A stretch of DNA of 64,000 nucleotides, taken from Candidatus Margulisiibacteriota bacterium (GTDB taxonomy: Bacteria > Margulisbacteria > WOR-1 > JAHJIW01). The notes beneath the pieces are model-generated. The model was not told the origin of the DNA and ran no database searches. It saw only the letters and a program-made list of their open reading frames with translations. The translations under genes and the position numbers were made by a program. The DNA is taken from positions 1 through 64,000 of the forward strand of contig JAHJIW010000012.1 in NCBI GenBank assembly GCA_018823125.1. The letters are read 5' to 3'. Positions 54,401 to 59,182 of this stretch are shown piece after piece; the first letter of the stretch is position 1; the number at the start of each line of letters is the position of its first letter.

Positions 54401-54760
54401 ATGATTAATTATATTTTACTTTTTATTTCAATTGGCATGGCGGTCATTGGTCAGCTGCTGATGAAGCACGGGATGCGCATGATCGGTTTTTTTCCGCTTT
54501 CGCAGCTCTTTTCCCGGTTTTTTTCGATAATCTTTAACCCGTTTGTGTTTAGCGGGATTTCTATGTTTGCGCTTTCGGCGATTGTTTGGTTAGTGGTTCT
54601 TTCCCGTTTCGAGTTATCGTTTGTTTATCCGATGGTATCGGTGGGATATGTTATTGTTGCGCTCGCTTCCATGTTTTTCTTTCATGAATCGATTACGTTA
54701 GTTCGTTGGCTGGGAATTGGCACCATTATTTTAGGAGTTTTCTTGATTTCGAGGTCGTAA
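54401..54760 (+). CDS. Small multidrug-resistance-type (EamA/SMR) membrane protein
   Basis: The 119 residues form four membrane helices (INYILLFISIGMAVIGQLLMKHGMR, then IFNPFVFSGISMFALSAIVWLVVLSRFELSFVYPMVSVGYVIVALASMFFF in parts). SMR/ArnE-type proteins of this size form dimers that move drugs or lipid carriers. AGGAGG precedes ATG 54401; a longer frame would start inside the pseudopilin gene. It could flip a sugar-lipid, as ArnE/F do; unproven. Confidence 0.78.
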   Translation: MINYILLFISIGMAVIGQLLMKHGMRMIGFFPLSQLFSRFFSIIFNPFVFSGISMFALSAIVWLVVLSRFELSFVYPMVSVGYVIVALASMFFFHESITLVRWLGIGTIILGVFLISRS

Positions 54761-55252
54761 TTAGTCTTTCTTGTAATACTTGGTGAAGTCTTCGGGTTTC
54801 ATGTTGTTGATAAAGTCTTTAAACTTTTTGGTTTCTTCTTCGTCTTTTTCGGCGTTTACCAGTTTAGCCTGCATCATTACTATTTCGGCTACATTGATCG
54901 GGCATTTAGTGCGTACCGCTAAAGCAATCGCATCACTGGGGCGGGAATCGAGTTCAATTATTTTGCCGGCTTTGTCTTTTATCTCAATGATTGCGTAGAA
55001 AGTACCCTCTTTTACGTCACTGATCACAACCCTCTCGATCTTGGCGTCAAAAGCTTTGATCGTTTCTTTAATGAGGTCGTGGGTCATGGGGCGGGGAGGC
55101 GTAACGTTTTGCAGCTCCATCGCAATGGCGGCCGCTTCAAAAATACCAATCCAAATAGGCAGGAAGTTTAATTCTTCTTGATCTTTTAAGAGGACCAGTG
55201 GAGATAGATTTTTAGGATCAAAACCCAGTCCCCCGATTTGCATCTGAATCAT
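54761..55252 (-). CDS. DUF151 bifunctional nuclease-like protein
   Basis: The 163 residues have the DUF151 (bifunctional nuclease) pattern: VLLKDQEELNFLPIWIGIFEAAAIAMELQ, PRPMTHDLIKETI, DSRPSDAIALAVRTKCPI near 110-127. Family members in plants and some bacteria cut RNA and DNA; in most bacteria the role is unknown. It meets the SMR gene convergently and lies after rplT on the same strand. Confidence 0.88.
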   Translation of the reverse strand: MIQMQIGGLGFDPKNLSPLVLLKDQEELNFLPIWIGIFEAAAIAMELQNVTPPRPMTHDLIKETIKAFDAKIERVVISDVKEGTFYAIIEIKDKAGKIIELDSRPSDAIALAVRTKCPINVAEIVMMQAKLVNAEKDEEETKKFKDFINNMKPEDFTKYYKKD

Positions 55253-55271
55253 GTTTTTTCTCCCGGTTTAC

Positions 55272-55625
55272 TTAGGCGGCTACTTTTACTTTTTCTACCA
55301 GTTTAGCAAAAGTAGGCATATCGGTAGCGGCGATATCCGCTAAAATCTTGCGGTCGAGGCGGATATTTGCCTTTTTTAGCTTACCGATCAGCTGGCTGTA
55401 TGAGATGCCTTGCATTTTGGCGGCCGCGGAGATGCGCGCAATCCATAATCCGCGGAAAGTGCGCTTTTTTTCTTTGCGGTGGCGGGTGGCATGCGTTTTG
55501 GCTTTCGTGTCTGCTTGTTTAGCTGCGCGAAATACGTTTTTCAGCGTTCCCCTGTAACCTTTGTTGCTTTTAAATAATTTTTTCTTTCTTTTACGGGCTA
55601 CATTTCCTCTTTTTACTCTAACCAC
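55272..55625 (-). CDS. rplT: Ribosomal protein L20
   Basis: The 117 residues are a typical L20: basic N-terminus with VKRGNVARKRKKKLFKSNKGYRGTLKN, then RGLWIARISAAAKMQGISYSQLIGKL. It binds 23S rRNA early in assembly. Last gene of infC-rpmI-rplT in the order found throughout bacteria. Confidence 0.97.
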   Translation of the reverse strand: MVRVKRGNVARKRKKKLFKSNKGYRGTLKNVFRAAKQADTKAKTHATRHRKEKKRTFRGLWIARISAAAKMQGISYSQLIGKLKKANIRLDRKILADIAATDMPTFAKLVEKVKVAA

Positions 55626-55641
55626 TTTTTGTTCCTCCTAA

Positions 55642-55839
55642 TTAAAACCCGGGGAGCATCTTTTTTACTCTTTTGACGTCAGACGGGCTGATCACAACAT
55701 CCCGGCGTCCCTGCCGCTTATTTTTCTTAGATTTACTTTCTAGGATATGACGGCGATTGGTGTTGCCTCTTTTAATCTTTCCGGTTCCGGTTTTTTTAAA
55801 TCTTTTAGCAGCGGCCTTTCTGGTTTTTAACTTTGGCAT
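55642..55839 (-). CDS. rpmI: Ribosomal protein L35
   Basis: The 65 residues ([38 protein letters not shown] in parts) form the L35 pattern. It lies between infC (nine bases) and rplT (16 bases), the standard operon order. Confidence 0.97.
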
Positions 55840-55848
55840 AATTTTCTC

Positions 55849-56355
55849 CTAATTTGGTGCTACGATCAGGTTCATATTTCGACCTTCTTGTTTGGGAGGA
55901 GCTTCGGGCTGCCCTTTTTCCTTAATACTCTCGATTACGGTTTTTAATAGATCCCGGCCTAAATTGCGGTGGGACATCTCCCGTCCCCTAAAAAACAAAT
56001 TAAACTTTACTTTGTAGCCTTTTTCTAAAAATTTTATGCAATGTTTTACTTTTACGTCTAAATCGTGCTGTCCAATTTTTAGTGACAGTTTAATTTCTTT
56101 TAAAACCCCGGTTTTGCGAGATTTTCTAGCTTCTTTTTCCTTTTTGGCGGCTTCGTACTTGAGTTTGCCGATGTCCCCAATTTTACATACCGGAGGTTTT
56201 GCTTGCGGTGCAATGAGGATTAAGTCTAACTCATTTTCGGCGGCTTTCTCGCGTGCTGACTCTAAACTTACGATTCCAAATTGCTCTCCTGTTTCGCCGA
56301 TTAACCGGACCTCGGTTCCCCTGATCTGCTCGTTAATAATGTACCTTTTTGCTAT
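55849..56355 (-). CDS. infC: Translation initiation factor IF-3 with AUA start
   Basis: The 168-residue product is a clear IF-3: INEQIRGTEVRLIGETGEQ, GIVSLESARE, PQAKPPVCKIGDIGKLKYE, VLKEIKLSL near 85 and GREMSHRNLGRDLL near 130. No ATG, GTG or TTG occurs in frame before the IF-3 domain: an in-frame TGA lies nine bases upstream of an ATA codon at 56355-56353, and AGGTGG sits nine bases before it. The frame (ATA)-AKRYIINEQIRG matches normal IF-3 N-termini. IF-3 in E. coli begins with AUU, which allows autoregulation because IF-3 rejects rare starts; AUA would act the same way. Confidence 0.88.
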   Translation of the reverse strand: MAKRYIINEQIRGTEVRLIGETGEQFGIVSLESAREKAAENELDLILIAPQAKPPVCKIGDIGKLKYEAAKKEKEARKSRKTGVLKEIKLSLKIGQHDLDVKVKHCIKFLEKGYKVKFNLFFRGREMSHRNLGRDLLKTVIESIKEKGQPEAPPKQEGRNMNLIVAPN

Positions 56356-56385
56356 GAGATCTCACCACCTAATATACGTGAAATT

Positions 56386-56428
56386 TGTGTAACGAAGGGT
56401 AATTTTATAGTAAAAAACGCGCTAAGTC
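56386..56428 (-). promoter_or_regulatory. Promoter of infC-rpmI-rplT
   Basis: On the minus strand TTGACT, 17 bases, then TAAAAT lies upstream of the infC leader, which is about 40-50 bases long. It drives infC, rpmI and rplT. Exact ends are approximate. Confidence 0.6.
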
Positions 56429-56446
56429 AAGGTTGAAGGGGCATAG

Positions 56447-56631
56447 GAGCTTCCCCAAAATTATAAAAATCAATGGCCCGCGCAAACACGCCTCGAAAAT
56501 CCCACCGAGATTTTCGAGGCTAACATTTCGACCTCGCTCCCCCTCTCCGCCTTTGGCGGATCGGGGACCATGGCCGCTCGGTCTCATGATTGTTTGCTTT
56601 GGGCCATTGCTTCTAATCTTTGGGGAAGCTC
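56447..56631. ncRNA. Branched, strongly folded intergenic element (candidate structured RNA or mobile repeat)
   Basis: The element has a three-part closing stem: GAGCTTCCCCAAA (56447-56459) with TTTGGGGAAGCTC (56619-56631), CAATGGCCC (56471-56479) with GGGCCATTG (56601-56609) and GCAAACA (56482-56488) with TGTTTGC (56591-56597). Inside are a 12-bp hairpin GCCTCGAAAATC/GATTTTCGAGGC (56490-56520), a TCCGCC-TTT-GGCGGA hairpin (56546-56560) and a possible GACC/GGTC stem (56566-56583). It is richer in G+C than its flanks. Strand unknown. It could be a structured RNA or a palindromic mobile element; no transposase is visible. With the promoter sequences it fills 56356-56752, a stretch without a gene. 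Confidence 0.5.
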
Positions 56632-56674
56632 AATTACATTATGACGATAAAATCAGGTAGAAAAATACATAAAA

Positions 56675-56704
56675 TTGAAATTTCAACCTAGTTTTAACGA
56701 TATA
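56675..56704 (+). promoter_or_regulatory. Sigma-28-like promoter, site E
   Basis: TTGAAATTTC (56675-56684), 14 bases, GATATA (56699-56704), one of the slightly divergent copies; the -35 is part of a perfect palindrome TTGAAATTTCAA. The AAGGAG site and ATG 56753 follow after 48 bases. Confidence 0.62.
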
Positions 56705-56752
56705 TATATGGAATGATAATTTAGTATGTTTTCGGAACAAGGAGATGCTGGA

Positions 56753-57475
56753 ATGCCTGGAAGATTAGGTTTCTCATTAAGGAAGCCAGTTGAATGGTTA
56801 AAAAAGAGGGTGGATTGCCTTAAACGCAATTCTGTGCAGCTTCAGCCCAATCAAATTAATGACCTTTTACCGGGTTTTTTGGGACGATGTGGATGGCAAC
56901 CAGGCATGCAAATCATAATTTCACGGGGTCGGCATGATTTTACGCTTACGGACCTTTCACAAATTAAAAATGGGCAAAGAATGCAGCTTTGGGATGGAGA
57001 GCCGGTGGCGATCATGAGAAGAGGAAATACTTTAACCATTGATTATTTTGAACTTCCTTCAACCTTAGCGCGTAGGACGTTCCCCTTAGATATTTCGGTA
57101 ATTGTTCCAGAAGGGTTATCCGAACGAGAAATATTTGATAGGAATCTCGAATTTGTACTTTCTCCTGAATATTCTAAAGCTCGGTTACGTGAAAGCCAGG
57201 GAGGGAATACAAGGGTAGGTGTATTAGCGGTGAATATCTTGACTACTCCTGAGGGTAGATTTGTGGAAGTGTCCAATAGTGCTAAGCTAGGATTTGAAAC
57301 GGTTACTTATGCTCACCATGAATTTGAGTTTGATGCTGTCGGACAAATCCGTATCCTTGGGGGAAAGATAGTTGATATCAAGGTGTCTTCGGAAAAAATT
57401 TGGCCGATGGCACGTGAAGTAGCAAAAACATATAATAACTGCGTAAAAGTAGCTCCAGACGGGGTAAGACTATAG
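56753..57475 (+). CDS. Unknown 240-residue protein of the sigma-28-like regulon
   Basis: No family recognised. Soluble and basic at the N-terminus (RKPVEWLKKRVDCLKRN), then beta-rich (MQIIISRGRHDFTLTDL, RMQLWDGEPVAIMRRG, FELPSTLARRTF) and alpha/beta toward the end. An ATG at 56726 is in frame, but AAGGAG at 56739-56744 fits ATG 56753. The gene sits on the opposite strand between thrS and infC, normally adjacent in bacteria, so it and the folded element are an insertion into that cluster. Convergent with thrS, the ends overlapping by six bases. Confidence 0.7.
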   Translation: MPGRLGFSLRKPVEWLKKRVDCLKRNSVQLQPNQINDLLPGFLGRCGWQPGMQIIISRGRHDFTLTDLSQIKNGQRMQLWDGEPVAIMRRGNTLTIDYFELPSTLARRTFPLDISVIVPEGLSEREIFDRNLEFVLSPEYSKARLRESQGGNTRVGVLAVNILTTPEGRFVEVSNSAKLGFETVTYAHHEFEFDAVGQIRILGGKIVDIKVSSEKIWPMAREVAKTYNNCVKVAPDGVRL

Positions 57476-59182
57476 TTCTTTAACGAAGGAGGCCGTAATT
57501 TCTTTCACCGACTTCTGTCCCAAATCGCCCTTGCCGTGCTTGCGAACTGAGACTTTTTTAGCTTCCATTTCTTTATCGCCGATGATTAACATGTAGGGGA
57601 TCTTTTCAACTTCGGCATTGCGGATTTTATTGCCGATTTTTTCGCTACGGGTATCAATGGTTACACGAAAATCTTGTTTTTGAAGTTCTTCCGCTACATT
57701 ATTTGCATATTCGTTATGACGATCGGCTAAGGGCAGGATGGCAACCTGAGTGGGTGCCAGCCAAAGCGGGAAATTTCCGCCGTAATGTTCAATTAAACCA
57801 CCAATAAATCGCTCTAGACTACCTAAAATTGCGCGGTGAATCATGACCGGACGATGTTTTTTGCCGTCTTCACCGGTATAGGTAAGGTCAAAACGTTCCG
57901 GCAGATTAAAATCAACTTGAATGGTAGGTCCTTGCCACAGTCTTCCCAGCGCATCTTTAAGTTTTATGTCGATTTTAGGACCGTAAAATACGCCGCCACC
58001 GGGTTCGGGTTCATAATCAATCTTATTTTTCTTTAAGACTTCTTCTAATATTTCTTCGGCGTGATCCCAGGATTCGGGGCTGCCCACAAATTTTTCGGGG
58101 CGCAGCGCCAAAATAACTTTATATTCATACCCGAATTTTTTCATCACAAAGTCCACAAATTCAATTACTTTGTGAATTTCATCCATTAATTGATCTGGAC
58201 GACAGAAAATATGGGCGTCGTCCTGGGTAAATCCGCGAACGCGGAGTAAGCCGTGCAATACTCCGGATTTTTCGTAACGATAGACGGTGCCAAACTCAAA
58301 ATATCTGATTGGCAAGTCTCGATAACTGATGAGTTTGCGTTTAAAAATTGTGATGTGACCGGGACAGTTCATGGGTTTAATTACATAATCTTGTTTGTCG
58401 ATTTCCATGAAATACATATTTTCTTTGTAATAACCGGTGTGTCCGGAGGTTTGGAAAAGATCAATTTTCGCGATATGGGGAATGGCGACAAACTCGTAGC
58501 CTCTTTTTAGGTTTTCTTTTTTGAGAAATTCTTCAATGATACTGCGCAGCATCGCTCCCTTAGGATGCCAGTAAACAAATCCAGCGCCGCATTCTTCGTG
58601 GATGCTGAATAAGTCTAATTCTTTACCTAAGCGGCGGTGGTCTCTTTTGTGAGCTTCTTCTAGATTATTAAGATATTTTTCAAGTTCTTCTTTAGTAGGG
58701 AAGGCGGTGCCGTAAATGCGCTGCAGCATCTTGTTTTTTTCACTGCCCAGCCAGTAGGCTCCGGCAATGGAAAGAAGTTTAAACGCTTTAATTTTTTTAG
58801 AGAAGTTTACGTGAGGGCCTTTGCATAAATCTACAAAATCGCCGTGCTGATAGATGGTTACGTTGGCATCATCCAGCTTTTTAAGTAGTTCAACTTTGTA
58901 GGTTTGGCCTTTTTCTTTGAAAAATTGAATGGCTTCTTTGCGATCCATCTCTCGTTTTTCAAATTTAAGATTTTTCTTGATGATTTCCTTCATTTTTGCT
59001 TCGATTTTGGGAAGGTCTTCGGGTTTTAAGACGTGTTCCATATCAAAATCGTAGTAAAAACCATTCTCGATGGCGGGGCCAATCCCTAATTTTACGTTGG
59101 GAAAAAGCTGCATGACGGCGTCAGCCATAATATGGGTGGTGGAGTGACGAAGCATTTCTAAATCTTGAGTACCTTTTGTCAT
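57470..59182 (-). CDS. thrS: Threonyl-tRNA synthetase without TGS domain
   Basis: The 570 residues lack the N-terminal TGS domain of E. coli ThrRS (about 60 residues) and start in the editing/SAD region: MLRHSTTHIMADAVMQLFP with the HxxxH motif, YHGDFVDLCKGPH with the editing Cys/His. The class II catalytic core has motif 2 (FGTVYRYEKSGVLHGLLRVRGFTQDDAH) and motif 3 (HRAILGSLERFIGGLIEHYGG), and the C-terminal anticodon-binding domain runs from about 470. A TATAAT (59196-59191) eight bases upstream makes it near-leaderless; no ribosome site. Confidence 0.94.
   Translation of the reverse strand: MTKGTQDLEMLRHSTTHIMADAVMQLFPNVKLGIGPAIENGFYYDFDMEHVLKPEDLPKIEAKMKEIIKKNLKFEKREMDRKEAIQFFKEKGQTYKVELLKKLDDANVTIYQHGDFVDLCKGPHVNFSKKIKAFKLLSIAGAYWLGSEKNKMLQRIYGTAFPTKEELEKYLNNLEEAHKRDHRRLGKELDLFSIHEECGAGFVYWHPKGAMLRSIIEEFLKKENLKRGYEFVAIPHIAKIDLFQTSGHTGYYKENMYFMEIDKQDYVIKPMNCPGHITIFKRKLISYRDLPIRYFEFGTVYRYEKSGVLHGLLRVRGFTQDDAHIFCRPDQLMDEIHKVIEFVDFVMKKFGYEYKVILALRPEKFVGSPESWDHAEEILEEVLKKNKIDYEPEPGGGVFYGPKIDIKLKDALGRLWQGPTIQVDFNLPERFDLTYTGEDGKKHRPVMIHRAILGSLERFIGGLIEHYGGNFPLWLAPTQVAILPLADRHNEYANNVAEELQKQDFRVTIDTRSEKIGNKIRNAEVEKIPYMLIIGDKEMEAKKVSVRKHGKGDLGQKSVKEITASFVKEL

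Follow-up and report, generated by a model that had tools for sequence, protein, structure and literature searches.

Where does translation of infC begin when its reading frame offers no ATG, GTG or TTG near the 5′ end? The question is raised by a bacterial contig of which a stretch of 64,000 nucleotides, referred to here as the window, was analyzed, and for which an initial annotation had proposed an AUA start. We consider it highly probable that this is an ordinary infC gene with an AUA start codon, which would come under the classic IF3 autoregulation of Escherichia coli, AUA taking the role of AUU.

The infC Gene and Its Start Region

The gene and the elements surrounding its proposed start are:

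55849..56355, minus strand: infC, translation initiation factor IF-3, proposed start ATA, 168 amino acids (TIGR00168; PF05198 and PF00707)
56353..56355, minus strand: proposed ATA start codon, from the sequence; the homologous start is ATA, ATT or ATC in 60 of 61 relatives and GTA in the remaining one
56362..56364, minus strand: in-frame TGA closing the infC frame upstream and overlapping the Shine-Dalgarno
56362..56370, minus strand: Shine-Dalgarno AGGTGGTGA, 8 of 10 matches to AAGGAGGTGA with the preceding base counted

The frame had been annotated as an IF-3 gene, and a profile search bears this out, with a score of 190 bits against TIGR00168 (cut-off 60) across 165 residues. Both Pfam IF3 domains are complete (IF3_N at residues 7-76, covering 1-70 of the 70 model positions; IF3_C at residues 85-168, covering 3-86 of 86), and the gene is the sole IF3_C match in the whole 1.73-Mb assembly. 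From stop to stop the frame stays open for 170 codons (55849-56361, minus strand), with the infC stop codon at 55849-55851.

On the minus strand the start region reads ...TATATT AGG TGG TGA GAT CTC ATA GCA AAA AGG TAC ATT ATT AAC GAG CAG. The ATA at 56355-56353 lies where it had been reported, behind an in-frame TGA (56364-56362) that begins nine bases upstream and behind AGGTGG (56370-56365) with nine bases between. Only GAT, CTC and ATA are usable codons near the Shine-Dalgarno after the TGA; an NTG start is absent, and a codon from the AUU/AUC/AUA set stands behind the Shine-Dalgarno. The spacing of 9 nt from GGTGG to ATA is toward the upper limit of the 6-10 nt found in relatives. This genome's 16S rRNA has the standard tail, ending in GGATCACCTCCTTTCT, and an ordinary Shine-Dalgarno is therefore expected; AGGTGGTGA pairs with this tail except for a single internal mismatch. 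The gene is in all likelihood intact and ordinary, its AUA read by the initiator tRNA (anticodon CAU) under the guidance of the Shine-Dalgarno 9 nt upstream, and the protein would read (f)Met-AKRYIINEQIR...

Counted from the ATA, the first in-frame ATG, GTG or TTG comes at residue 120, a TTG at 55998, so that the figure of 130 given initially was slightly too high. A start at this TTG would delete the entire N-terminal domain, and a gene caller limited to ATG, GTG and TTG would shrink infC to a 49-residue fragment, leaving an essential factor seemingly missing. Among stop-to-stop frames of at least 100 codons in the window, infC has the longest NTG-free run (121 codons; the next has 92), and at the NTG frequency of the phylum's infC genes the probability of 118 successive codons lacking NTG is about 0.001. 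This run is nevertheless incidental, and the case for AUA as the probable start rests on comparison with relatives. An alternative upstream start had been named as what could overturn the AUA reading; canonical starts upstream of infC were sought in any frame, and none was usable. The nearest upstream ATG on the minus strand (56444-56442) is out of frame, runs into a stop five codons on, and precedes the probable promoter.

infC Start Codons Across the Phylum

The genomes searched comprised 31 in the class and 66 in the phylum (completeness at least 70%), the window's own genome included; none of the same family was found among them, and the comparison is therefore one of class and phylum. The infC gene and its upstream region were fetched for 62 genes, including that of the window, and start codons were assigned by hand. 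The homologous start codon is ATA in 26, ATT in 25, ATC in 10 and GTA in one, and none of the 62 shows a clear ATG, GTG or TTG start. Aligning the starts of relatives, the check that had been proposed for the AUA reading, therefore favors it, the non-canonical class being kept throughout (61 of 62 AUH, one GUA). The accompanying description of AUA as a rare variant does not hold, because AUA is the commonest infC start in the phylum and is documented in Staphylococcus aureus (PMC13009471).

The placement of these starts is consistent across the loci. In nearly all 62, the start codon lies 6-10 nt past a GGAGG-like core, and 51 have no ATG, GTG or TTG whatsoever between the upstream stop and the start codon. 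Among the 11 that do, six belong to a single family (f10) in which a GTG overlaps the Shine-Dalgarno GAGGTG, while in the others the NTG codons lie at least five codons further upstream. An ambiguity of one codon attaches to L053, L062 and L074, which carry two adjacent AUH codons, and to L058, where an ATT at spacing 3 is followed by a GTC at spacing 6. Within the class of the window's genome, L008, L018, L019, L022 and L028 have the residues I-A-K/R-x-Y after the start in common, and the homologous start position is therefore fixed. From this conservation of the start site, which is directly observed, we infer that infC is initiated at AUA in vivo.

These comparisons bear on two other explanations. 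First, the codon could truly be ATG, or a frameshift could hide an upstream ATG, the ATA being an error of sequencing or assembly. The assembly is indeed a draft of 19 contigs, but the homologous codon is ATA in 25 other genomes of the phylum and ATT or ATC in 35, and the ATG at 56444-56442 is out of frame and soon followed by a stop. We give this explanation almost no credence, and judge it very unlikely from the aligned loci that either a sequencing error or an overlooked ordinary start accounts for the pattern. Second, translation could start at another non-canonical in-frame codon, either the CTC at 56358-56356, which sits 6 nt past GGTGG at a spacing common among relatives, or the ATT at residue 6 or 7, a codon within the accepted non-canonical set. 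However, the CTC is not conserved, and CUC is not known as an infC start. Both ATT codons lie at least 24 nt from the Shine-Dalgarno, and the stretch of residues between the ATA and the ATTs is conserved among relatives whose start position carries ATC or ATA. A start at any of these codons is only slightly less improbable than an error, and the AUA start remains our preferred reading.

Two relatives depart from the AUH set or may do so. In L024 (genome G010, same class) the homologous start is GTA, which lies 7 nt past GGAGG and immediately follows an in-frame TAA; the only NTG close by is the TTG at residue 6, preceded by a weak AGGG. This infC is either GUA-started, or shortened and UUG-started, or affected by an assembly error. 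In L058 (genome G052, same phylum) the ATT lies 3 nt past GGAGG and the next codon, GTC, at 6 nt; the GTC aligns with the start of some relatives, and this infC could have a GUC start like that of Streptomyces sigR. We tentatively propose, at somewhat less than even confidence, that the infC start drifts freely among AUA, AUU and AUC and never to AUG, GUG or UUG, with GUA used in at least one lineage (that of L024) and GUC maybe in that of L058. If true, GUA, a codon weak at both its first and third base, would enlarge the range of infC starts subject to IF3 autoregulation.

Neighboring Genes and Start Codon Switching

The genes that follow infC in its operon served as controls:

55642..55839, minus strand: rpmI (L35), starting with ATG, second in the operon (TIGR00001, 85 bits)
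55272..55625, minus strand: rplT (L20), starting with GTG, third in the operon (TIGR01032, 140 bits)

The order infC-rpmI-rplT is the one expected for infC, and a gene with a bifunctional-nuclease domain follows rplT on the same strand as infC. All 30 loci that extend over the two genes have ATG or GTG as the start of both rpmI and rplT (direct counts 26 and 30, respectively, the other four rpmI genes having an ATG two codons away from where the alignment places the start). Within this check, which for ATA starts elsewhere covered the frames of the window and the rpmI and rplT genes of relatives, the non-canonical start is specific to infC.

To place the start codons on a phylogeny, a maximum-likelihood tree of IF3 was built with the start region left out; it is a quick tree with many weak branches. 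By parsimony the start codon switches at least 14 times on this tree, always within ATA, ATT, ATC and GTA, and on the strongly supported branches alone about 4-5 changes are forced for each of the three common codons. No switch leads to ATG, GTG or TTG, and ATA is a single transition away from ATG. The pattern is what selection for a start discriminated against by IF3 predicts, and the comparative evidence points to selection on the codon class (rejectable by IF3) rather than on a particular codon.

A further possibility is that AUA is the start but merely holds infC expression low, without IF3 feedback. Reporters in S. aureus lend this some plausibility, as non-canonical starts there gave about 10% of AUG expression in poor medium (PMC13009471). 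Yet GUG, UUG or a weak Shine-Dalgarno would do for that purpose, whereas about 14 switches never produced an NTG start and most relatives have kept a strong Shine-Dalgarno. Together these two features fit selection for a codon open to discrimination by IF3, and we regard low expression without feedback as unlikely, though less so than the two explanations considered above. The reading in which AUA couples infC to its own product is preferred.

Promoter, Leader and Upstream DNA

A motif search upstream of infC returned one candidate:

56402..56430, minus strand: probable promoter TTGACT-17 nt-TAAAAT, 10 of 12 matches

One such site was found where 1.1 are expected by chance, making the match weak when taken alone; its position would give infC a leader of about 40 nt. 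Across the phylum, 41 of 61 loci have an exact TATAAT in the 90 nt preceding infC, as against about 6% of shuffles; the window's counterpart is the TTGACT-17 nt-TAAAAT site. Within the class it lies mostly 27-37 nt before the start. It is conserved in L003-L028 and ends about 15-30 nt before the infC start in most of these, at 15 in L025. With TATAAT so close to the start, the leader of the infC mRNA can only be very short, some relatives coming close to leaderless, and infC seems to open its transcript. No Rfam match was found in 54500-57500 at E≤1, and the infC leader folds no more stably than its shuffled versions (z -0.04), so a structural switch is not claimed.

Two features of the upstream DNA were also recorded. 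A palindromic element of about 150 nt (56465-56620), just upstream of the infC promoter, folds at -81 kcal/mol vs. -47 kcal/mol in shuffles (z -8.6) and three other copies, 73-80% identical, occur in the genome; the element resembles a small repeat of the MITE or REP type. Between thrS and infC, an open frame of 249 amino acids (56726-57475, plus strand) lies on the opposite strand and has no Pfam match.

Autoregulation and Comparison With Known Systems

The proposed mechanism follows from the way IF3 inspects start codons. IF3 destabilizes 30S initiation complexes in which the third codon base pairs improperly with CAU, and in a reconstituted system it tolerates third-base Watson-Crick and G/U pairs and disfavors weaker ones (PMC10158994). 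AUA would form an A-C pair at the third position, and IF3 should discriminate against it as against AUU and AUC. Since IF3 destabilizes poorly paired starts, infC translation from AUA should fall as free IF3 rises, a homeostatic loop such as AUU provides in E. coli. The link between the AUA start and IF3 autoregulation is supported by its fit to the comparative evidence, while the feedback itself is proposed by analogy with other species. This would extend a textbook translational feedback loop to this phylum.

In E. coli, infC starts with AUU, and IF3 rejects the start of its own gene, thereby repressing itself (PMC5472188); changing AUU to AUG abolishes this control (Butler et al. 1987, as cited in PMC5472188). 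The window's gene resembles that of E. coli in having a non-NTG start that differs from AUG at the third base only and is preceded by a Shine-Dalgarno, but the codon is AUA rather than AUU and feedback is presumed from the likeness. Streptomyces infC starts with AUC and regulates itself, and both this gene and Streptomyces sigR, which starts with GUC, are IF3-repressed from non-canonical starts, sigR showing that a GUN codon can be an IF3-repressed start too (PMC5472188). Unlike these, the codon here is AUA, with GUA in one relative (L024) only. The closest parallel is S. aureus infC, the same gene with the same AUA start, at which retapamulin-enriched ribosome density was observed and for which the authors propose autoregulation (PMC13009471). 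S. aureus is a distant organism, and the start in the window is deduced from sequence. Because the S. aureus AUA start is published, the AUA described here is a new instance of a known situation; what is new is the pattern of starts across the phylum, along with the GUA that may serve as start in L024.
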